From a virus, in the IMG/VR virus record IMGVR_UViG_3300036766_000685, positions 1 through 30,041 of that record: a DNA stretch of 30,041 bases, one strand, 5' to 3'. Below, piece by piece: positions 1,750 to 26,314 of the stretch. Within the stretch, counting starts at the first letter, position 1, and the number at the start of each line of letters is the position of its first letter. Made by a program: the position numbers and the translations under genes. The notes under the pieces are model-generated. The model made no database searches. It was not told where the DNA came from and worked only from the letters and a program-made list of their open reading frames with translations.

Positions 1750-4700
1750 ATGGCAGACGGTCGGGTCTTACTCCAAGCCTGGCGCGAGAAGTACCCTGGC
1801 GCCTACGATGACGTACCAGACCAGGATCTTATCGGCGCGATCCGATCGAAGTTCCCTGGGGCATATGACCATTTCAGCCTCGGACCTGCCGATACCTTTT
1901 CCGGAGCCAAAGCCACCGGCTCCGGCGCTAGGACCCTTCCGCCCTCCCCGGAGAGTGTTCCACGTGAAACCCTCCCCTATCAAACCGACCTATCCCAGGA
2001 ACCAGAAAACCGCGCAGAAAGCGATTTAAGCGATCTTTATCCCCGACACCCTGGAGACATCGCGGAAGGTTCCGATCTCCAGAGGGCGCCTTCGGTGGCA
2101 AAAGGCCCGGGCAACGTAGTCGCCGCTCCAGTCCCAAAACCGACCTATCCGACCCTTGGGCCCGAAAATACTCGAGAACTGACACCAAATGAGACACCTT
2201 GGTATCGCAAGTCGCCTCTTAGGCTGTCCGAGGGCCTTCACAAGTTCTTTCCGGAAGTCGATACCGCGACCAGCCGCCCGGGAAAGATCGCCGCCGGCCT
2301 GGTGAGGGGTGGGGTTCAAGCCGTCGAGGGATTGACAACGCCCTTGAGTCTCGGTTTACTCAGTGGAGCGTCGCTAGCCGCTCCGGCCGCGGTAGCCGGC
2401 GCAGCATTAATCGGAGCGTCTCCAGCCACGGCCGCCATCGTGGGAGCCGGGGTGTCCGCCCTGCTCGATCTCGGCTTTACGGCCGACATGGCTCATAGCC
2501 TGGTCCAAGAGGCGCCGGAGGCTATCGCACAGATCGGCGACGACTACCGGAGGGGCGACTTAGCCTCCGCGACTGAAAAGGCGACCAGTTTAGCGGTAAG
2601 TGCTGGATTCGCCCTGTCAACAGCCCACGGCGCCGGCCGCCGAATCGGTGAAGTTACCACGGCAGTTCGAAACCGGCCGCCGCGCCTAGCCAAACCGGCG
2701 GGGGTCGAACAGCAGGGCCCGGCTCTTCCTCCAGGGGGACAGGCCCCGGCGATCCAAGCTCCGGAGCAAGCGACTGGCTACCGCGCTCCGGCCCTTGGAC
2801 ACACAGAACTCCCGTCAGCACCAGAACCAGAATTTGATGCCTTGGTACGTGGTGCGGCCCCCGAACCTCCGCCAGGGCCCCCTGTCATTCAAGAGCCGCC
2901 CCATCCTGTCATCGTCGAGCCGCCGGCCTCGCCTCCGATTGCGACCGGACCGCCGCCGATCCCCGAACCGCGCGCGCCGGAAGTGCAGCCGATCGCTACA
3001 AGACCCGTCTCTCCGGAACAGCCAATGGTCCCTGAGCAGTACAAGATTACGGATCTGGCCGATGCCTACGAAGAACCCCAATCTCCGCCTCCGGAGAAGA
3101 AAACCAGGACGGTCAAGTATGGTGGGAAGAAATATCCCGTCAGTGAAGACCGGATCCCTACCGAACTACTGAAAGACTTTGCAACGTATCAGCGCCGATT
3201 TGGACAGGCGGACTTTGAATGGTGGCTCAGAAATAAAAGTCAACCTGGCCTCGCGCCAGAGCCGATTCAAGAGCATGAAAGACCCGCAGAGCCTCCGGTG
3301 ATGTCAGAAGGGCAGGCCCGAGCGGAGAAGTTAGGGAAACTGCGCGCCGAAGGGGAGGGTCAAGGCACCTGGTCGCTCCCGACGCTGGAAGGCCCAATTA
3401 CCCTAGAAGACGCCGCCATATATCGAAAGGAAATAGAGAAATCGGAAGGCCGGCGGGAAGAGCGGCCGGTCGAAAGAGAGAATCTCCCTGGCAAGCACTT
3501 CCGAGAAGAAGAGCGGGTCGCGCTGGCAGAAGAGATTCGTAACCGTCCAGTGCCGGCTGTTGCAGGTCAGTTCGAGTCAAATCCCCTGATCGTAAAGTTG
3601 AGAGAGCAGGCCGAATACGAAAGAGAGAAAGGGGAGGACGCCAATCCAAAGAGAGTCGATGCCTTTCAGCGCATGGCGAATGAGATGTCCGAGGGTGGAT
3701 CCGCGAGTAGCCCGATGGATGTTCATATCCCCGTTGGAACTCGCCTGATTTGGCACCTTGCGGGGAAGGATCCCGCAGCGGTCCTCGAAGTATCGAAGGT
3801 GGATCCGACAGCCAGGTACTTCACGGCGAAGGTTGTCGAGAAGCTTCCAGGCTACGACGCCGACACGTTCTTTAAGGGCCGCGTTGAGGATGGAAAGATC
3901 GGCCTGCACAATGTCGATTACACCTATCTCCGCCTGGCCCCGGAAGCCGAGAAGCCCTCCAAGGCGGAGCCAGGCCCGACCGTCAAAAAAGAGACTTCCG
4001 AAACGACTCTCAAGCTCAAACAGGAACTAGAACGCCTGAAGGAAGAGCGTGCGGCCCTGGATGCCAAGCTTCAAAAGGAACCCACTCCTGGCAAAAGATC
4101 CGAAATGGTGCCGCCGGAGATCAAGAGGGATGTCTTTGCCAATGCCGCGAAGAAACTCGACAAGCTCGACAATCAGATATCCCAACTTGAGGCTGAGCAG
4201 ACCCCGGCCGGAGAGCAATTCTTAGTTCCTGGCGTGGAACCGATCCAAGCCAAAGAGGCCCAGGAGCCAGTCGCCCCAGCGATGGCGCGAACAATCTCCG
4301 CGCAGGAATACACCAAGCTCGACAAAGACAAATATGGTGGCCTCGCGTATCTCATTCGCCGCGGCCTGGACTCGATGACCGGCGAGCAGACAAAGACGCA
4401 TTTTTCAGTCGATACCGGAAATAAGACCTTTCAAGTGGTCCCGCCGTGGATTGTGCGCCTGATGCGTCGAAACGCAGCCGGATACTTCGATAAAACTAAG
4501 CCAAATACGGCGTCGACACTGGATGGAATTGAAATAACCAGGCTTTCCGATCAAGACGCCAAGAAACACGGCATGGGTGACTACACCAACGTATACGAAG
4601 TCGACACTCCGGCCGGGAAACTCACGCTTGCCCAGCAGCCGATCAGTGGTCTGAATGTGAAACAGAATTGGCGCGTTGACTTCGACCTCTCGACTGACCG

Positions 4701-14436: not shown

Positions 14437-14655
14437 TTCAAGGTCATGGGTCGAACTGCCAGGAACTTATGGCCCCTGGAGATCGACACTTCGGGAGGCT
14501 GGTACTCCCGCAAAGCGCGTGCTAGCCCGCGCATACCAGAACGGGGCCCGCTCCCCCGTGAAGGCCCGCGTGTGACTCACGCCGCCGTCAAACGTGGGAG
14601 CGGTCCCCGCGGGCGAGTCGTCGAATCTGGCGGCTCGCCTTACCTTGGAGGTCGA
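14437..14655. other. GC-rich gap with several potential hairpins, no convincing gene
   Basis: No good coding frame is seen. Strong inverted repeats are visible: CGGGAG/CTCCCG around a 7-base loop near 14494, ACGGGG/CCCCGT around a 7-base loop near 14541, and GGCGAG (14612-14617) with CTCGCC (14634-14639). The last could help terminate the minus-strand transcript ending at 14640. A structured RNA is possible but unproven. Confidence 0.35.
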
Positions 14656-15038
14656 ATGGAAAACCCTTTCAATCTGCTCAGTAATCCGGGGTTCACTGGC
14701 CGGCTGTTCATTTGGCAGATGCCACCCATCCAGCGGGGTCCCGGCGCCATAATGTGGTGGGTGTGCAACGACACGCAATCGGTCGGCCGGCCCTGTCCGC
14801 TGTGCTGGAACTGACGCGATGAGATGGGAACGGGGTGTCCTTGGCAGGTTGCTCGGACGGTCGCGGGATCACTGTCAGACGACAGTTGACTGACGGATCG
14901 TTCGTATTCTTCGAGGTGGGCTCGTATCTGTCCCAGCGCGCGCTGGGATGCAGGGTAGGGGAACTCCAGTCCTTCCAGGTGGCGTGCTTCGTCGATAAAA
15001 GCTTGTAGCCGCTTTCTGGAGTAACTGAGGATGCTCAC
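14640..15038 (-). CDS. Hypothetical minus-strand protein whose C-terminus runs through repeat copy 1
   Basis: From GTG 15038 the frame gives 132 aa; a GTG at 15104 is also in frame but would overlap the upstream gene by 62 bases. The first 60 residues look natural: a helical pair with SYSRKRLQAFIDEARHL and RALGQIRAHLEEYERS. From about residue 80 onward the frame is the antisense of the 89-bp repeat and the small ORF at 14656, so the true protein was probably shorter or has been altered by the insertion. Four bases separate it from the stop of the minus gene at 15043-15510, suggesting one two-gene minus operon. Function unknown. Confidence 0.45.
   Translation of the reverse strand: MSILSYSRKRLQAFIDEARHLEGLEFPYPASQRALGQIRAHLEEYERSVSQLSSDSDPATVRATCQGHPVPISSRQFQHSGQGRPTDCVSLHTHHIMAPGPRWMGGICQMNSRPVNPGLLSRLKGFSIRPPR
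14656..14814 (+). CDS. Small ORF fused to the 89-bp repeat
   Basis: ATG 14656 has a strong TTGGAGG site with 5-base spacing. The first 24 residues (MENPFNLLSNPGFTGRLF then IWQMPP) are unique; the remaining 28 residues come entirely from the repeat and end in CPLCWN. The same peptide tail ends the unrelated ORF at 16891-17106. The minus-strand ORF opposite may be the real gene here. If translated, this is a 52-aa peptide with three Cys. Confidence 0.4.
   Translation: MENPFNLLSNPGFTGRLFIWQMPPIQRGPGAIMWWVCNDTQSVGRPCPLCWN
14728..14816 (+). repeat. Repeat copy 1 (89 bp; first 55 bp shared by all three copies)
   Basis: Identical over 89 bp to 17020-17108, and over its first 55 bp (14728-14782) to 15732-15786. 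With copy 2 the match extends six bases further left (CCACCC). It begins ATCCAGCGGGG and ends GAACTGACG, contains GGCGCC and GGCCGGCC palindromes, and can pair CAGCGG near its left end with CCGCTG near its right end. Confidence 0.95.
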
Positions 15039-15042
15039 CCGG

Positions 15043-15510
15043 TCATCGCCGGTACGGGTGCGCTGGGCGCCAAGAGTGCATTGATTGAACTTGCGCGGCG
15101 GCACATTCTGCTAGAGCGGCACAAAACGCCCGCAGATTCTTGAGGGATTCCTTTGGTTCGTCAGCCTTCCTTGGACTCTCAAGACGTTTTACGATATTTA
15201 GCGCCTCCTGCACGAGCTCGCTGACTGTCCGTACTTGAACGTCCCACTTGGACGCGTCCAACGCCTGGCTCATCAAGGCAATTGTTGTGGGATCAAGGTG
15301 CGGCTGCTCCGCAGCCTTTTCGTTCTCTTTTCTTGTAAAGGATTCGCTAAGGAGTTCCGCCAGACGGCTTGTCGCAGCCAGATCGGAGGTTCCACCCTGC
15401 CGGATGATGCTGTCAAGTTCGATCGCCGCTCGCACCGCCAATAGCGGTAAACCGGCATTGAAAGTTCCAAAGCTTTCCTGAATTGGCTGGGTTGCAATAA
15501 GTTCGGTCAT
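15043..15510 (-). CDS. Hypothetical minus-strand helical protein (moron-like)
   Basis: ATG 15510 gives 155 aa, preceded on the minus strand by a GAGGG-type site; the frame extends further upstream but without a better start. The protein is almost entirely helical, rich in Ala, Leu and Glu, with no Cys cluster or membrane helix (GLPLLAVRAAIELDSIIRQ, then VSELVQEALNIVKRLES). It is one of few minus-strand genes in the window and lies between two copies of the repeat, with palindromic operator-like sites upstream. That pattern fits an independently expressed accessory gene. Function not recognised. Confidence 0.65.
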   Translation of the reverse strand: MTELIATQPIQESFGTFNAGLPLLAVRAAIELDSIIRQGGTSDLAATSRLAELLSESFTRKENEKAAEQPHLDPTTIALMSQALDASKWDVQVRTVSELVQEALNIVKRLESPRKADEPKESLKNLRAFCAALAECAAAQVQSMHSWRPAHPYRR

Positions 15511-15555
15511 GTGTAGGCCCTCAGTATTCTGTATTGCGCCGGCGAGTTCAAGTCT

Positions 15556-15593
15556 TTGACATTTGTCAATTAAAGTTGACAAATTAAAGTCAA
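15556..15593. promoter_or_regulatory. Operator-like palindromes containing TTGACA
   Basis: Two inverted repeats sit side by side: TTGACATTTGTCAA (15556-15569) and TTGACAAATTAAAGTCAA (15576-15593). They are upstream of the minus-strand gene at 15510 and at the start of the interrupted plus ORF. A related perfect palindrome occurs at 18254-18270 upstream of another orphan gene. Confidence 0.5.
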
Positions 15594-15956
15594 TCCTCAA
15601 CGCTGGCTGGAACGTCGCTTTGGACGACAACTTATGGCACGATCATAAGGAGATTCGCGACAAAGACCGGACGCTTAAAGAATTGATCCTCAAGAGCATC
15701 GAAGTCTTGGAGTACCGGCAGATCACCACCCATCCAGCGGGGTCCCGGCGCCATAATGTGGTGGGTGTGCAACGACACGCAATCGGAGGTCTTCTTTACC
15801 CGGCGCAGCGAGGTCGACCTGGACATAACCGACGTTACTCAAATCGGACACTATGAGCCAGAATTCGATCCCGAGCACCATCGAATCATGGGCTGGCCTC
15901 TATGCTCAATCTGCCGATCGAGGCATTCGAGTAGCTACATTCACGCTTGCGAATAG
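15563..15956 (+). pseudogene. ORF interrupted and frameshifted by repeat copy 2
   Basis: Before the repeat, frame 2 reads a natural charged sequence ending KSIEVLEYRQI. After it, frame 0 reads VFFTRRSEVDLDIT, then MGWPLCSIC and a stop at 15956. Deleting the 61 bases shared with copy 1 (15726-15786), or the 55-base core, joins the two halves in one uninterrupted frame of about 110 codons (RQIKVFFTRR at the junction for 61). With the repeat in place the upstream frame ends at 15856. The TTG start at 15563 is uncertain. The likely reading is a small Cys-containing protein broken by insertion. Confidence 0.55.
15732..15786 (+). repeat. Repeat copy 2 (55-bp core, 61 bp shared with copy 1)
   Basis: Identical to the first 55 bp of copies 1 and 3, in the same orientation. 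The left match with copy 1 extends to 15726. It lacks the last 34 bp of the longer copies. It interrupts an otherwise continuous ORF. Confidence 0.95.
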
Positions 15957-15978
15957 AACAGGAGAAATACTCAAATGA
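15853..15978 (+). CDS. Possible 41-aa ORF overlapping the interrupted gene
   Basis: ATG 15853 opens a 41-codon frame whose stop overlaps the ATG of the repeat-rich gene at 15975 as ATGA, the arrangement common elsewhere in this genome. There is no good ribosome binding site, and another frame over the same bases looks like the end of the interrupted gene, so only one of the two is likely real. Confidence 0.25.
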   Translation: MSQNSIPSTIESWAGLYAQSADRGIRVATFTLANRTGEILK

Positions 15979-16880
15979 CAAAACAAATGGAGGTACACAA
16001 CCAAAAAGAATTAGACACCGCCTTAAAAATGGGAGCTGATGTTGCCCCCATCCTACTCGGTAATGCTTTTTATGAGCTGGGTGGAAACTCCCGCGCCACG
16101 TTGTGTGGAAACTCCACCGCCACGTTGTGTGGAAACTCCACCGCCACGTTGTGTGGAAACTCCCGCGCCACGTTGTGGGGAAACTCCACCGCCACGTTGT
16201 GGGACAACTCCACCGCCACGTTGCGGGACAACTCCACCGCCACGTTGCGGGGAAACTCCACCGCCACGTTGTGTGGAAACTCCACCGCCACGTTGCGGGA
16301 CAACTCCACCGCCACGTTGTGGGGAAACTCCACCGCCACGTTGTGGGACAACTCCCGCGCCACGTTGCGGGACAACTCACGCGCCAACGCATCAGAAGCA
16401 AGCCAGCTGTCTGCCTTCGACAAATCAAGCATCATAGCTGCGCGCTACGTTGCCATAACAAAGCACCATAACACTGTAAAAACAAAAGGCGGGATAGTTA
16501 TTGCTATCCCGGTTGTCAAAACCGCGAAAGTATGGTGTGAGTTTTACGCAGTCCCTATCAAGAAAGGCGTGGCTGTTTTATTCAAAGCAGTTGGAGATGA
16601 CTTCCAAAGTTCAAGAGGCGGTGTATTTTATACGCCTGGGACTAAGCCTGAAGCCCCAGATTGGGACGGTGGAAGAGCCGAGTGTGGCGGTGGCCTTCAC
16701 TTCTCACCGTGTCCCAAATTGGCCAAATCAATGAACCAGGACGCTAAGCGATTTGTGGCCTGTCCCATAAAGGTCTCGGAAATTAAAGTCCATTATCCGG
16801 CTCAATATCCTAATAAGGTAAAAGCCCCTCGGGTATTCGGAGCGTGCTACGAGGTGGATATAGAGGGTAACCGCATCTAG
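15975..16880 (+). CDS. Tandem-repeat beta-solenoid-like protein with conserved C-terminal phage domain
   Basis: ATG 15975 follows AGGAGA by about nine bases. Residues 37-140 are thirteen 8-residue repeats of the type (G/D)NS(T/R)ATL(C/W/R), the last one degenerate. Such octads resemble the repeated ATV/ATL patterns of predicted right-handed beta-helix proteins. Residues about 150-301 are a separate domain: AVLFKAV, PDWDGG, then ECGGGLHFS and VKAPRVFGACYEVD. I recognise this pattern from phage hypothetical proteins (probably DUF7666-like). Base use is visibly more AT-rich than the neighbours outside the repeats, consistent with acquisition. A surface or host-interaction role is possible; function is not known. 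Confidence 0.75.
   Translation: MTKQMEVHNQKELDTALKMGADVAPILLGNAFYELGGNSRATLCGNSTATLCGNSTATLCGNSRATLWGNSTATLWDNSTATLRDNSTATLRGNSTATLCGNSTATLRDNSTATLWGNSTATLWDNSRATLRDNSRANASEASQLSAFDKSSIIAARYVAITKHHNTVKTKGGIVIAIPVVKTAKVWCEFYAVPIKKGVAVLFKAVGDDFQSSRGGVFYTPGTKPEAPDWDGGRAECGGGLHFSPCPKLAKSMNQDAKRFVACPIKVSEIKVHYPAQYPNKVKAPRVFGACYEVDIEGNRI
16083..16394 (+). repeat. 24-bp tandem repeat, 13 units
   Basis: Thirteen contiguous 24-bp units with consensus GGAAACTCCACCGCCACGTT plus a variable last codon and first-codon variation. They differ at only a few positions, so the array is young. Because 24 is a multiple of three, unit gain or loss keeps the frame. There are no unique spacers, so it is not a CRISPR array. 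Confidence 0.95.
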
Positions 16881-16890
16881 GAGATGACTT

Positions 16891-17106
16891 GTGAAGCTTT
16901 CTGAATTAAGGAAGGGCCAACGGTTCTATATTAAAGGGAAGTATTTCCAGGTCAGCGGAAAGCTGATCGACAAGAGCGGCGGGTCCGCTGTCGTAATCTA
17001 TGATGGCGAGACTTCCAGAATCCAGCGGGGTCCCGGCGCCATAATGTGGTGGGTGTGCAACGACACGCAATCGGTCGGCCGGCCCTGTCCGCTGTGCTGG
17101 AACTGA
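16891..17106 (+). CDS. Small beta-barrel-like ORF, C-terminus replaced by the repeat
   Basis: GTG 16891 has AGGAGA six bases upstream. The first 43 residues (LSELRKGQRFYIKG, then GGSAVVIYDGETSR) look like a small SH3- or KOW-like beta protein common in phages, which normally continues with more beta strands. Here the frame enters the 89-bp repeat at base 17020 and ends with the same 28-residue tail seen at 14656-14814. The native C-terminus is therefore probably lost. Deleting the 89 bp would fuse it in frame to the ORF at 17109. Confidence 0.6.
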   Translation: MKLSELRKGQRFYIKGKYFQVSGKLIDKSGGSAVVIYDGETSRIQRGPGAIMWWVCNDTQSVGRPCPLCWN

Positions 17107-17108
17107 CG
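17020..17108 (+). repeat. Repeat copy 3 (89 bp)
   Basis: Identical over all 89 bp to copy 1 at 14728-14816, in the same orientation. It ends one base before the ATG at 17109. Copy 1 is likewise followed closely by an ATG whose first residues would be MRW, so the right edge may include the start context of a following gene. Confidence 0.95.
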
Positions 17109-17282
17109 ATGCGATGGAAAAGAAAAGACCGCCCTTGCCGAGTCAAAACCAGATTTCTCTTTTTTCCTAAACGAATCGGCTCCGAATGGCGGTGGCTGGA
17201 GATCGCCTCTTGGGTCGAGGTATTCAACGATACCGGCGGGTTCTATGATCCGCGTGAGTGGACAGAAAAGCGGTGGCATTGA
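17109..17282 (+). CDS. Small conserved-looking phage protein
   Basis: This 57-aa basic protein starts at the ATG directly after repeat copy 3 and overlaps the next gene's start by one base (TGATG). It contains TRFLFFPKRI, then EWRWLEIASW and a Trp-rich end (REWTEKRWH), a pattern I associate with small single-domain phage proteins of unknown function. No ribosome binding site is obvious because the upstream sequence is the repeat, so its native leader may have been displaced. Confidence 0.6.
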   Translation: MRWKRKDRPCRVKTRFLFFPKRIGSEWRWLEIASWVEVFNDTGGFYDPREWTEKRWH

Positions 17283-18111: not shown

Positions 18112-18151
18112 CAGGCGCCGGAGAGGTTCCCTAACCGCTTCCGGCGCCTTT
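18112..18151 (+). terminator. Rho-independent terminator, copy 1
   Basis: A perfect 10-bp stem AGGCGCCGGA/TCCGGCGCCT with an inner GGTT/AACC stem, then TTTAATTTT. The 40 bp are identical to 19280-19319. It closes the transcript that includes the nuclease and membrane protein. Confidence 0.85.
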
Positions 18152-18390: not shown

Positions 18391-19269
18391 ATGAAGGTAC
18401 AGGTAAACTACACACTGAGTAAGTTAGGACAAAAACACGCAATCCTCGCCGGCCAACCCTCCGGACGAAACCACAGAGTGGAAATGGATCTAGATCCCGG
18501 GGTCGTGGATCTCTCGTCGATCGATGAGCACGGATCGATCAGTATCACAATAATCAATGAATTTTCATCCCATCCGACTCATGGTGAAGTCGAGTCCTTC
18601 ATTCTTGTACAGAGAGAAAAACAGTCGGAAGAAAAAGAAGAGAGACAAAAGAGATCCCTCGCAACTCTGATAGAACTCCTGAACGAAGGTTGTTCTGGGT
18701 GGATCTGCCATGACGGTCAAGAAATTGTAACACCGCGCCCTTGGGCCAATATCTACCGGAATGATGTAGATCCTCGGTTGTGGGATCAAGCCGTCGCCCT
18801 TATTTTAGTTCAGCAAAAGGAGAAAAAGAGGTTGAAAGAATCGGAGGAACAGCTCCGCCAGGTGGAGCTTGATAGGTTTAAATCCGAGAAGACATCAGAA
18901 CGTCATTCCTGGATCCGGGAAAACGGGTCTGAAAAACTGCGAAAAAATCTGTCTCACGGGATGGAGTGTCGTCGGACGTATGTGTCTGAGAGACTCTCTC
19001 ATGATTTTCCGGGTTGGATCTTCCCCACAAAAGGTACTGTAAGAGAAGTAATCTGTTGTGAGTCAGAGGAACTGGATCTCTTTGACCGACTCAAAACTAC
19101 CGCCGGCTTGAACGAATTTGAACTTAAATTCGTTCAAGAATATGAAAAATGTCCTGACGGTGGTGGGTGCGAGGAGTGCGACGACGATGGAGACCACATT
19201 TCTAAATCATACCGGATCGTGAGGGCTCACTGTGCGGTGTTGGAGGAAGACGTGTGGTTTCTGGTCTAG
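18391..19269 (+). CDS. 292-aa orphan (moron-like) protein of unknown function
   Basis: ATG 18391 has GGAGG seven bases upstream. The protein has a beta-rich N-terminus (about residues 1-75), a long Glu/Lys/Arg helix (76-95 and again 143-180) and a Cys-containing C-terminal region with CPDGGGCEECDDDGD that may bind metal. No family is recognised. Identical terminators lie before and after it, and it has its own palindromic upstream site, so it is transcribed as a single-gene unit. That is the usual structure of a moron, a late-acquired gene with its own control, often expressed in lysogens. Function unknown. Confidence 0.75.
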   Translation: MKVQVNYTLSKLGQKHAILAGQPSGRNHRVEMDLDPGVVDLSSIDEHGSISITIINEFSSHPTHGEVESFILVQREKQSEEKEERQKRSLATLIELLNEGCSGWICHDGQEIVTPRPWANIYRNDVDPRLWDQAVALILVQQKEKKRLKESEEQLRQVELDRFKSEKTSERHSWIRENGSEKLRKNLSHGMECRRTYVSERLSHDFPGWIFPTKGTVREVICCESEELDLFDRLKTTAGLNEFELKFVQEYEKCPDGGGCEECDDDGDHISKSYRIVRAHCAVLEEDVWFLV

Positions 19270-19279
19270 ATAGATGAGC

Positions 19280-19319
19280 CAGGCGCCGGAGAGGTTCCCT
19301 AACCGCTTCCGGCGCCTTT
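19280..19319 (+). terminator. Rho-independent terminator, copy 2
   Basis: Same 40 bp as 18112-18151, including the 10-bp stem and inner GGTT/AACC, followed here by a run of T. It ends the 292-aa gene and isolates the packaging genes downstream. Confidence 0.88.
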
Positions 19320-19363: not shown

Positions 19364-19900
19364 ATGGATCCCGACCTAACCGCGAAGCAGCTCCGTTTCT
19401 GTGAGGAATATCTCATCGATTTGAACGCCACCCAGGCCGCAATCCGCGCCGGCTACTCGAAACATTCGGCCCGGTTCATCGGTCAGGAGAACCTAACAAA
19501 ACCCAACATTCGAACCAAAATTCTCTGGCTGATGGAAGAGCGGTCAAAGAAGACCGGGATCACGGTAGAGCGCGTGCTGGAGCACCTTGCCGCGTGCGGC
19601 TTCTCGCTCATCACTGATCTTATTTCCTGGGACGCTCAGGGAAACGTAACGATTCTGCCTTCGGCCGACCTGAAGGGGCCCGCCGGCGTCGCCCGGTTCT
19701 CACAGAAGGATGGGTCGATCTCGGTCAAAATGCACGACAAGATCCGCGCGTTGATCGCGCTGGGGAACCATTTGGATATGTTCGGCAAGATCCGAGGCCG
19801 CGGGGAAGACCTGCCCGATGCGCCGGCAGCCCACGGGGATGACAAAGACTGGCCGCTGCGCCTCATTACCAAGGTGCCCGACGGCGATTGGACGATGTAA
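19364..19900 (+). CDS. terS: Terminase small subunit
   Basis: The 178-aa protein opens with LTAKQLRFCEEYLIDLNATQAAIRAGYS, the DNA-recognition helix-turn-helix signature of the Terminase_2 small-subunit family. It then has VERVLEHLAACGFSLITDLI and a DKIRALIALGNHLDMF segment, also typical. Small terminases recognise the phage packaging site and hand DNA to the large subunit. Length fits the family. A terminator and a GTATTACG box lie just upstream, so this begins a new transcript. Unusually, about 640 bases holding two ORFs separate it from the large subunit. Confidence 0.9.
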   Translation: MDPDLTAKQLRFCEEYLIDLNATQAAIRAGYSKHSARFIGQENLTKPNIRTKILWLMEERSKKTGITVERVLEHLAACGFSLITDLISWDAQGNVTILPSADLKGPAGVARFSQKDGSISVKMHDKIRALIALGNHLDMFGKIRGRGEDLPDAPAAHGDDKDWPLRLITKVPDGDWTM

Positions 19901-20086
19901 ATGCGCTTCCCAAAAACAGAACAATACCAGGGTCATGAGTACATCTTAGTCGGCTGGGATGAGCTGACTCAGTTCACCCTCGAACAGTGGGAATTGATGA
20001 GCGCCCGGAGCAGATGTCGAGTTCTGCGGCCAAGAGGCTGGGTTAAGATCGCCGACGTTATTTCGGTTAAGGAGGACTGTGAGTGA
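19901..20086 (+). CDS. 61-aa chimeric ORF carrying a copied TerL Walker B segment
   Basis: ATG 19901 follows the terS stop directly, with no clear ribosome binding site. Residues 8-33 (YQGHEYILVGWDELTQ and on) are nearly identical to TerL residues around Asp152-Glu153, including the Walker B acidic pair. The remaining residues are unrelated, ending in KEDCE. It has no Walker A and no nuclease part, so it cannot be an ATPase by itself. It may be a recombination relic, or a short protein that competes for TerL contacts. Natural function is uncertain. Confidence 0.5.
   Translation: MRFPKTEQYQGHEYILVGWDELTQFTLEQWELMSARSRCRVLRPRGWVKIADVISVKEDCE
19922..19999 (+). repeat. 78-bp partial duplication of terL (matches 20958-21035)
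   Basis: 72 of 78 bases match, offset by 1036 bases, same strand and same frame. Homology stops abruptly on the right and within a few bases on the left. Three of six differences change an amino acid. Confidence 0.9.
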
Positions 20087-20540: not shown

Positions 20541-22106
20541 ATGGGCCTTGGTCTTCCGCCTCCGCTGACGCCCCCACCGATCATTAAAGTGGGGGACGAC
20601 GGCCTGCAAGAGTACATCCGCGGCCGCCTGCTCGACACTTACACCCCCTGGCCGAAGCAACGCGAGTTTCACATCTCGAAGGCGCCTTATCGATTATTCG
20701 GAGGCGCCGCCGGCCCGGGCAAGACCCTGGCGATCCTCTTCGAGGCGATCAAGATCGCCGCACAGAAATACGACCAACCCGTCAACACGCTGATTCTTCG
20801 CCGCACGTTCTCGGAACTCCAGGGCGTCATCGACACCTTCATGCGCCTTGTGCCTCGCGACCTCTACCGCTCTTACAACGATTCGAAGCATATCGTTCGC
20901 TGGAAGAACGGATCCTCGACGCGATTTGGCTTCGCGGCCAAGGAAAAGGATATCTGGCAATACCAGGGCCATGAGTACATCTTCGTTGGCTGGGATGAGC
21001 TGACTCAGTTCACCCTCAAACAGTGGCAACTGATGTCGGCATGGTGCCGATCGCCGCAGGGCCCCGGCAAGATGGCCGGAGCTACCAATCCGATCGGCCC
21101 GGGTCACGCCTGGGTCAACGCCCTGTGGCGGAAGAAGGTGCGGGCCCCTGGCATGGAGGCTGACGCCGAATACAACCCGGCCGAATATGAGTTTTTCCCG
21201 GCAACCCTGGCAGACAACCCCGTCTATTCAGCGGACACGCCGGCGGGACGCTCCTACCGATCTAAACTCGACGCGCTGCCTGCACATCTGCGAAAGGCCC
21301 TCAAAGAAGGCCGCTGGGATATCCTGGCTGGCGTCTACTTCGAGAACTTCAACGCCGAGACGATGGTCATTCGCCCGGAGACGATGCCGCTGCGCCCCTG
21401 GTCGCCCAGGTGGCTCTCGATCGATTGGGGATTCGATCATCCGGCCGCGGTGTACTGGCACGCGACAGGCGAAGATGGAGTCACGTACACTTACCGAGAA
21501 TTTGTCGTCAGGAAATTGGGGCCCAGGAGCCTGGCCCACGAGATCATGGATCGGAGCCGGATCCCGGAGTGGCAGCGTCAGAATCCAGTCCCAGGGCAAA
21601 ATCGGAACGCGACCCACGAGAACATCAGCGAAATCTGGCTCTCTCCCGATGCCTACGCCAAGCGCACCGATGAGGACACGATCGCGAGGCAAATGGAGCA
21701 GGTCTTTACCGCGAACAACTTCCCCGCGCCGTCGCCGGCGGACAACGATCGCCGCGGTGGCTGGATGCTTATGTACCAAATGCTCGACTCAGGCACTTGG
21801 AAGCTCGGAAGCAGTTGCCCGGATCTGGTCGAGATCCTGCCGCAGCTCCAGCGCGACTATGAGCATGACGTGGAGGACATCTTGAAAGTAGACGGAGACG
21901 ACCCGGCCGACTCGGCCAGGTACGGGATCAAGAGCAGGCTTTCACCTGGTCGCGAACCTTCCGAAGTGAGGATCGCCCGAAAGGTCACTTCTGAAGATCC
22001 GACCATCCGCGCCATCCAGGCAATGAAGGCCGCGGCCGCTGAAAAGAAACACGCGGAACCGATCCGCCGACATCCAGCCAGGTTTAAGCCTAGGCGACGT
22101 CGATGA
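20541..22106 (+). CDS. terL: Terminase large subunit (ATPase and nuclease)
   Basis: The 521-aa protein has an ATPase domain with Walker A GGAAGPGKT (residues 54-62, Lys61) and Walker B VGWDE (Asp152, Glu153). The SATNP-like coupling segment follows (GATNPIG). The nuclease domain begins at SIDWGFD (Asp295) with HPAAVYW. It pumps DNA into the prohead and cuts the concatemer. Length and motif order are normal for the family. ATG 20541 follows the previous stop directly. A 78-bp piece around Walker B is duplicated upstream at 19922-19999. Confidence 0.95.
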   Translation: MGLGLPPPLTPPPIIKVGDDGLQEYIRGRLLDTYTPWPKQREFHISKAPYRLFGGAAGPGKTLAILFEAIKIAAQKYDQPVNTLILRRTFSELQGVIDTFMRLVPRDLYRSYNDSKHIVRWKNGSSTRFGFAAKEKDIWQYQGHEYIFVGWDELTQFTLKQWQLMSAWCRSPQGPGKMAGATNPIGPGHAWVNALWRKKVRAPGMEADAEYNPAEYEFFPATLADNPVYSADTPAGRSYRSKLDALPAHLRKALKEGRWDILAGVYFENFNAETMVIRPETMPLRPWSPRWLSIDWGFDHPAAVYWHATGEDGVTYTYREFVVRKLGPRSLAHEIMDRSRIPEWQRQNPVPGQNRNATHENISEIWLSPDAYAKRTDEDTIARQMEQVFTANNFPAPSPADNDRRGGWMLMYQMLDSGTWKLGSSCPDLVEILPQLQRDYEHDVEDILKVDGDDPADSARYGIKSRLSPGREPSEVRIARKVTSEDPTIRAIQAMKAAAAEKKHAEPIRRHPARFKPRRRR

Positions 22107-23815: not shown

Positions 23816-26314
23816 ATGTGGCCCTTTGGATCGAAGCCTATGGGCGCCGAGGGACAGGCCAGGACGCCGGACATGAATTCGGAAAGTCAGGAAGCCCCGA
23901 AAGCGCCCCCGCCCTTGCCCGGGACTGTAGCTCCGGATGAAACCCCAAAGCCAAAGTCAGACGGCGCCTCAACCGCACAAAGCTTTGGCCTGAACAATCG
24001 GGATCTGCCCGAGAAGCTTCAACAAGCTCTCCGCCGGCTCAAAAACGATTACAAGTCCGAAAGCATCGCGACCCGTCTGCAGGAAGTTAAGCGCGTGGTG
24101 CAGGCGCGCAACTTCTGGAAGGGCCTGCAAGACCTGGTTTGGAGCGAAACAGAAGGCGGCTGGCGCCTCCCGTTCGAACAGAGCTGGCCCGAGAACATCA
24201 GCGAGGAAGAGTACCCACGCTATGCCTTTGTGACGAATTTTTATCAGGCGTTCGGTCTTTCGATTATCGCCGTGCTCTCCCAATCAATCCCGCGCACCCG
24301 CCTCATGCCGAGCAATGCTCAGGATCCGAAAGACATCGCGACGGCGACCGCATCCAGCGATATCGTGAAGCTTGTCGAGCGGAATAACGACGCGCAAACC
24401 CTGCTCACCGAGATCGCCTTCATCTACTGGACAGATGGGAAGGTCGGAACCTACACGAGATTCGTCGTCGATGGTCAAAAGTACGGTTTCGATGAGTCGC
24501 CTCAGTACGCCGACACTCCGGACACCGTGAACTTAGGCCAATCGATGTACCACTGTATGGACTGCGGACAGGACACGCCGGCCGATGAGCTGGGCCCGCA
24601 GGAACAGCAGGAAGCCCCGGGCCAAGAGCTGGACGCCGAGGGTCAGCCTGGCGAAATGGAAGGAATGAAGTGCCCGAACTGTCAGGCGCCGATGGGGCCC
24701 GAGAACCTCGTCGCGGCTCCCGTGACTCAGATTCCTAGACAGATCGGAACAACCAGGATCCCCCGCGGCCAGGAGCGCATCGATGTCGTCGGATCCCTCG
24801 AACTCAAGACCCCTGTTTGGGCGCACTCTCAGGACGACTTTCCTTACCTGATCTGGGTGACAGAAGTTCACCGGGCAAAACTGCGCGCGATCTATCCGTG
24901 GGTGGCAAAGAAACTACAACAGGGGGCATCCTCTGGAGAACAAGGGAGCGATACCTATGAGCGACAGGCGCGGATCCGCATGGCGACCACCGGCGCCGAC
25001 GACGGAAACACACCGCGCACGGGAGGGATGCCAGGCCAGAACCTTGACACCTATGAACGGATTTGGCTTCGCACCTGGTCTTTCTACAATCTCGATGACG
25101 AGGCAACACGCGATGAGCTGCTCGCAGCTTTCCCGGACGGGGCAATGTGCGCCTTCGTTGGAGATACCTACTGCGAATCCCGGAATGAGAACCTTGACGA
25201 TCATTGGGTCGTCAGCCACGCGCTACCCGGGAACGGCCAGGACCGACCCGCGATCGGCGGTTCGCTCATCAGCGTTCAAGAGCGTTACAACACGACCGAG
25301 GATCTCAAACTCGAAAACATCGAATACGGGATCCCGGAGACGTATGCCGATCCGAAGGCGGTTGACTTCGAAGCCAGAGGCTCAACGGCGAGCGAGCCAG
25401 GCGCCATGTATCCGGCCAAGAGGCGGCCAGGCGAGGCTCTGTCAAATTCATTCTTCCAGACTGCCCCTTCGCAGCTCCCCGCCGGCGTCGAGCAATTCGG
25501 CCAAGACCTGATGGGACCCACAGCACAGTTTTTGACGGGCGCTCTGCCGGCTCTCTTCGGCGGAGATATGGCAAACGTCGATACGGCTAGCGGTTATAAC
25601 CTCGCGAAAAATCAAGCGATGGGGAGAATAGGCGTCGTCTATCGCAGCCTAAAGCGGTTGTGGGCGTACACGATGATGAACGCCGTGGAATGTTTCCGGG
25701 CGAACAGGAACGATGACACCATCGTCTCGATGATCGGAGAGGGCGGCCAGTTCGAGGCTAAGGCAATTCGGACGGCAGCTCTTAAAGGGTCAATCGAAGT
25801 TTACGAAGAAACCGATGAACAATTTCCGACCCTGCAAACCGAACAGAGAGGCATCCTCGATCGGATGATGCAGAGCGAGGATGCAGAGATCCAGCGCATC
25901 CTGGGAGATCCCGAGAATGTCTCCCTGATTAAGCGCCTGAGCGGGTTGACTGATTTGGTCATTCCGGAAGAAGTCGCCAGAAACAAGCAGCATCGGGAAA
26001 TAACCGAAATGGAGAACAGCGCCCCAACTCAGGGGATGCTTCCGAACGGTCAGCAGACTGTCGAGTCCAGCGTTCCGATTGACATGGTTGTGGATGACCA
26101 TGTAACCGAGGCCGCGACCTGCCGGCGCTGGTTGATGTCAGAGAACGGACAGAGCGCGAAGGTGTCGAATCCTCCCTGGTACGCAAATGTTCGGGCCCAC
26201 ATGATGGCCCACGAGGCCGCCGGCGCGCAGCAAACCGCATCTTCTTTCCCGACACAAACACCGGCCGGGCCCCCGGAAGGCCAATCTTCTCAACCTACAG
26301 GAGAATCTCAATGA
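23816..26314 (+). CDS. Portal protein with inserted Cys4 zinc site
   Basis: The 832-aa protein follows terminase and head-accessory genes and has portal features: a Pro-rich start, an N-terminal helical domain (RNFWKGLQDLVWSETEGGW), a FYQAFGLSIIAVLSQ segment, and a long helical C-terminal part with NLAKNQAMGRIGVVYRSLKRLW. Its length matches the large portals of podovirus-like phages. A likely zinc site is built from Cys247, Cys250, Cys286 and Cys289, separated by an acidic Gln/Glu-rich loop. The portal forms the dodecameric DNA gate. The family call is by layout and context, so an alternative head protein is not fully excluded. Confidence 0.82.
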   Translation: MWPFGSKPMGAEGQARTPDMNSESQEAPKAPPPLPGTVAPDETPKPKSDGASTAQSFGLNNRDLPEKLQQALRRLKNDYKSESIATRLQEVKRVVQARNFWKGLQDLVWSETEGGWRLPFEQSWPENISEEEYPRYAFVTNFYQAFGLSIIAVLSQSIPRTRLMPSNAQDPKDIATATASSDIVKLVERNNDAQTLLTEIAFIYWTDGKVGTYTRFVVDGQKYGFDESPQYADTPDTVNLGQSMYHCMDCGQDTPADELGPQEQQEAPGQELDAEGQPGEMEGMKCPNCQAPMGPENLVAAPVTQIPRQIGTTRIPRGQERIDVVGSLELKTPVWAHSQDDFPYLIWVTEVHRAKLRAIYPWVAKKLQQGASSGEQGSDTYERQARIRMATTGADDGNTPRTGGMPGQNLDTYERIWLRTWSFYNLDDEATRDELLAAFPDGAMCAFVGDTYCESRNENLDDHWVVSHALPGNGQDRPAIGGSLISVQERYNTTEDLKLENIEYGIPETYADPKAVDFEARGSTASEPGAMYPAKRRPGEALSNSFFQTAPSQLPAGVEQFGQDLMGPTAQFLTGALPALFGGDMANVDTASGYNLAKNQAMGRIGVVYRSLKRLWAYTMMNAVECFRANRNDDTIVSMIGEGGQFEAKAIRTAALKGSIEVYEETDEQFPTLQTEQRGILDRMMQSEDAEIQRILGDPENVSLIKRLSGLTDLVIPEEVARNKQHREITEMENSAPTQGMLPNGQQTVESSVPIDMVVDDHVTEAATCRRWLMSENGQSAKVSNPPWYANVRAHMMAHEAAGAQQTASSFPTQTPAGPPEGQSSQPTGESQ

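Follow-up and report, generated by a model that had tools for sequence, protein, structure and literature searches.

Three exact copies of a repeat in a metagenomic tailed phage are probably (about 60%, by our estimate) direct-repeat scars of recombination in an accessory region. They most likely remained after ordinary recombination had brought in accessory genes, a known process that does not amount to a new mobile element. The first-pass annotation had also offered a recombination hot spot for accessory genes as one explanation, which fits the data in that the copies bracket accessory cassettes.

Genomic context of the repeats

The window, i.e., the whole stretch of 30,041 bases that was analyzed, is an IMG/VR record of a tailed phage from a metagenome and has terminase and tail-fiber genes (Table 1). 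Further genes are an endolysin-like one and one for a protein of 2,274 residues that contains an LPD38 domain, and the 832-amino-acid gene that adjoins the terminase, a position conserved in relatives, would by that position be the portal. Searches with the terminase recovered 42 viral contigs of up to ~53% identity, several of which share the 832-amino-acid gene, but none of the 42 carries the genes around the repeats. The repeats sit in the accessory region of a mosaic tailed phage, upstream of its terminase genes.

Table 1. Positions of the repeats, cassettes, and neighboring features in the window
Feature	Position	Strand	Remarks
Small ORF	14656..14814	+	52 aa; GGAGG precedes ATG; last 28 codons are repeat copy 1
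Repeat copy 1	14728..14816	+	89 bp, fullest copy; similarity to 14714 (towards copy 2) and 14830 (towards copy 3)
Cassette A	14817..15731		Between copies 1 and 2; minus-strand ORFs 15043-15630 and part of 14640-15104
Palindrome TTTGTCAATTAAAGTTGACAAA	15562-15583		In cassette A
ORF	From 15563	+	In cassette A
Repeat copy 2	15732..15786	+	55 bp; 61 bp with copy 1 counted from 15726
Cassette B	15787..17019	+	Between copies 2 and 3; open frame to 15956, octapeptide-repeat gene, N terminus of ORF 16891-17106
Octapeptide-repeat gene	15975-16880	+	phrog_15773
ORF	16891-17106	+	Last 28 codons are repeat copy 3; N-terminal 43 codons in cassette B
Repeat copy 3	17020..17108	+	89 bp, identical to copy 1
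Small gene	17109..17282	+	phrog_11031; directly after copy 3
40-bp terminator-like repeat, left copy	18112..18151	+	Flanks gene 18391-19269
Palindrome TTGACAAAATTTGTCAA	18254..18270		Upstream of gene 18391-19269; half-site as at 15562-15583
40-bp terminator-like repeat, right copy	19280..19319	+	Flanks gene 18391-19269
Small terminase	19364-19900		Terminase_2
Large terminase (terL)	20541-22106		
832-aa gene	23816-26314		Adjoins terminase; conserved there in relatives

Extent and identity of the copies

All three copies lie in the same orientation at the coordinates first assigned to them, with 89 of 89 bases identical between copies 1 and 3 and 55 of 55 between these and copy 2. Copies 1 and 2 match exactly over 61 bases (14722-14782 and 15726-15786), and an alignment with one gap and one mismatch lengthens the match to 70 bp at 97% identity (14714-14782 versus 15717-15786). 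On the other side, copies 1 and 3 remain 96% identical over 103 bp (14728-14830 versus 17020-17120), and this imperfect similarity beyond the right edge of copy 1 runs into the first codons of the phrog_11031 gene, a pattern to be expected of a donor and a recipient that had diverged somewhat but kept a common gene order. The repeat core has zero mismatches, in keeping with the earlier statement that no silent changes have accumulated, but changes are seen at its edges. The similarity of copy 1 goes further on the left towards copy 2 and further on the right towards copy 3; copy 1 is therefore the fullest copy, and this overlap is one reason for reading the repeats as scars.

Pairs of exact 55-mers are expected by chance at ~1e-24, so that the observed repeat is far above chance. 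Among eight characterized phages, an exact repeat of at least 55 bp occurs only once (the T7 terminal repeat), and exact repeats of 49 to 107 bp occur in three of ~24 relatives, two of these being just 240 to 280 bp apart; such repeats are therefore uncommon but not unique. One terminase relative (L047) has an exact 65-bp repeat with a palindromic core at 4169 and 12211, 8 kb apart, as well as other short palindromic repeats.

The perfect identity of the copies might also come from assembly: if strain variants share the stretch, an assembler could have crossed the same k-mer node repeatedly and joined different phages into a chimeric contig. All three copies coincide over exactly 55 bp, matching an assembler k (k = 55 is widely used), and the source is an IMG/VR record. 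But pairs of copies share 61 and 89 bases, which is not what an artifact of a single k predicts; moreover, the flanks are largely coding, the modules follow a phage-like order, and a separate gene in this genome is flanked by repeats of 40 bp. An artifact of this kind is accordingly unlikely, although it is the foremost of the alternatives.

Open reading frames that end in the repeat

According to the first-pass annotation, the repeat gives unrelated ORFs a common 28-residue tail. This is so at copies 1 and 3, where ORFs end at 14814 and 17106, but not at copy 2, which encodes 18 residues only and no tail. Copy 2 comes after the ORF that starts at 15563 and lies in another frame, and the open frame that continues to 15956 has no upstream start, an ATG inside the repeat being its sole possible start. 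Near the portal genes of relatives, the copy-2 ORF has weak matches, but these contain stops, have E values near 1, and were set aside as chance.

Codon bias within the repeat is of the kind usual in open off-frames and falls in the lowest 3% of this phage's true-gene windows. The ORFs at copies 2 and 3, by contrast, look coding in their N-terminal parts, with 0.30 and 0.23 bits per codon, respectively. The shared tail was therefore probably acquired or is incidental, even if 28 codons make for a short codon-bias test.

These results bear on the view that the repeat is conserved for what it encodes: a C-terminal peptide (WWVC...CPLC), metal-binding-like, would be needed by the proteins and held identical by gene conversion. 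Two ORFs do end in the same 28 residues, in frame, and the cysteine spacing resembles that of a small zinc site, as judged from the residues. Against this, copy 2 is without the CPLC part and out of frame with the upstream ORF, codon bias is weak, and no protein relatives were found in viral contigs, GTDB genomes, or phages, which makes selection for the peptide a poor explanation of the identity.

Accessory genes between the copies

Copies 1 and 3 enclose a unit of 2,292 bp, which copy 2 divides into cassettes A and B, so that repeats in the same orientation bracket discrete genes, as expected of recombination scars. The ORFs of cassette A are on the strand opposite to nearly all other genes of the record, a placement that is common for inserted genes. 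Two of these minus-strand ORFs (15043-15630 and 14640-15104) overlap; a frameshift near 15050-15100 may have split what is one gene.

Cassette B holds a gene in which an array of 24-nucleotide tandem repeats (16014-16445) codes for the octapeptide NSTATLxx. The protein (phrog_15773) is related to those of mycobacteriophage genes, and its repeat part also to tail-lysozyme repeats. With matches in 105 phage records, the closest annotated genome being a 38-kb podovirus, it is a widespread phage accessory gene; this, together with the opposite-strand ORFs of cassette A, favors the insertion of accessory genes by recombination. One apparent relative (L004) was dismissed, its match being confined to the tandem array. 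Models of defense genes had no match within the cassettes.

Collapsing the repeats in silico leaves an intact arrangement of ORFs, which is again consistent with scars. When copies 1 and 3 are merged, the 52-amino-acid ORF abuts the phrog_11031 gene at 17109 in a tight gene order; when copies 1 and 2 are merged, the result is a single open ORF of 98 codons, which could be open by chance.

A second repeat-flanked gene

Exact 40-bp terminator-like hairpin repeats enclose the gene at 18391-19269, the second such case in this genome. The half-site TTGACAAA is common to two operator-like palindromes, one in cassette A and one upstream of the gene at 18391-19269, and two palindromes sharing an 8-base arm occurred in 0 of 60 simulated (first-order) sequences. 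Farther downstream, a small ORF (19901-20086) holds an in-frame 94-bp copy of a terL region (19922-20015 versus 20958-21051) with 86% identity overall and 92% in its core. This copied terL fragment, situated upstream of terL itself, shows further rearrangement in the region. The second flanked gene, the half-site that its cassette shares with cassette A, and the copied fragment each add to the case for recombination.

Tests for a mobile or functional element

On several counts, the data do not support the original proposal of a non-autonomous mini-element that moves in single-stranded form. The CAGCGG and CCGCTG motifs are present in the repeat, but the hairpin they were thought to form folds no better than shuffled sequences (z = -0.05 as DNA and +0.44 as RNA), so that the above-chance hairpin expected of elements moved as single strands (IS200/IS605-type ends, REP) is missing. 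Terminal inverted repeats or fixed ends, as in MPME or MITE elements, are lacking at the three copies; the flanks have no target-site duplication, which not every such element makes; and the roughly thirty ORFs scanned include no transposase, integrase, or reverse transcriptase. Nor are there signs of a diversity-generating retroelement, since the identical copies have no adenine-specific differences and no reverse transcriptase was among the proteins scanned.

Copies at other positions, which the proposal had anticipated, were absent from the record itself, from viral contigs (scanned with the exact 55-mer and a degenerate core and, like GTDB genomes, searched at the peptide level), and from phages and plasmids. 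Protein searches with the ORFs that contain the repeat or its flanks returned nothing convincing from viral contigs, GTDB genomes, or phages.

A mini-element that inserts at gene ends and is moved in trans would explain why exact copies occur at three sites, each after a different ORF, and the low codon bias makes the repeat look foreign to those ORFs. Yet copies elsewhere, inverted repeats, target duplications, and a significant hairpin are all missing, and the copies are unequal in extent, with differing edges past which similarity bleeds. Mobility of this kind is very unlikely.

Exact identity and placement at gene ends would also suit a functional DNA or RNA site kept in several copies, such as a promoter, a terminator, or a replication or packaging signal. 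That the repeat has no match in Rfam, no promoter or terminator call, and no structure above chance speaks against such a role, as does its length, much greater than the 13 to 17 bp of published phage repeat sites (PMC3203893, PMC4351075). A functional site is thus improbable as well.

Recombination as the probable origin of the repeats

Under recombination, foreign DNA would have been spliced in through homology to a short stretch over the end of the small ORF (repeat copy 1 or the sequence ancestral to it), so that one copy of the repeat came to lie on either side of the insert. Copy 2, inside the 2,292-bp unit, would mark a second event that parted cassette A from cassette B, and the cassettes could be lost again if copies recombined with each other. 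We infer this order of events, a recent date, and homologous or short-homology recombination as the mechanism.

Several points count against scars: at 55 to 89 bp the repeat is longer than in published cases, the basis is one genome, and neither a single-copy state nor an empty site turned up in any relative, those closest by terL being ~53% identical and sharing no gene of the accessory region. It is doubtful that the 55- to 89-bp stretch is a dedicated exchange site at the ends of small genes, through which the lineage repeatedly gains and loses operator-controlled cassettes and different ORFs receive a common tail.

If recombination is the right explanation, this phage offers a clear snapshot, probably a recent one, of the gain and loss of accessory genes in tailed phages. 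One small genome would then hold two repeat-flanked cassettes with one operator-like half-site, and a new mobile element would not be needed to account for them.

Relation to known systems

Published parallels, with repeats of 17 to 29 bp at gene ends (PMC3029335, PMC4351075), support recombination as the source of the repeats. In the Subcluster C1 mycobacteriophage LRRHood, a segment of ~1.35 kb with genes 43 to 46 lies between 29-bp direct repeats at gene ends, and its authors read it as gained or lost by recombination within the repeat, relatives being single copy (PMC3029335). The segments of the present phage likewise lie between direct repeats at gene ends. The present case differs in that single-copy relatives are known for LRRHood, whereas here the repeat is 55 to 89 bp, occurs three times, and has no empty site among the genomes found.

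Two Cluster O mycobacteriophages have accessory genes that are likewise set between short direct repeats where genes meet: gene 14 of Corndog, with a 17-bp direct repeat, and gene 60 of YungJamal, with 24-bp imperfect repeats (PMC4351075). The YungJamal gene is on the strand opposite to its neighbors, as cassette A ORFs are here. The repeats of both genes are shorter and in two copies, and the two cases were confirmed against four related genomes. For such repeat-flanked segments, the authors infer recombination with a repeat-carrying partner or deletion between the repeats (PMC3029335, PMC4351075).

Other repeated sequences of phages are less similar. The mycobacteriophage mobile elements MPME1 and MPME2 are likewise small identical sequences inserted in phage genes, but MPME1 is 439 bp long, has inverted repeats, and occurs in several phages (PMC3029335), none of which applies to the present repeat. 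The start-associated sequences of Cluster K (PMC3203893) and the 17-bp palindromes of Cluster O (PMC4351075) are also dispersed in a phage genome, but these are 13 to 17 bp long, in many copies, and at gene starts or intergenic, in contrast to a long, nonpalindromic repeat in few copies at gene ends. By analogy with the LRRHood, Corndog, and YungJamal cases, the three copies are most likely an unusually long example of the repeat-flanked accessory cassettes already known in phages.
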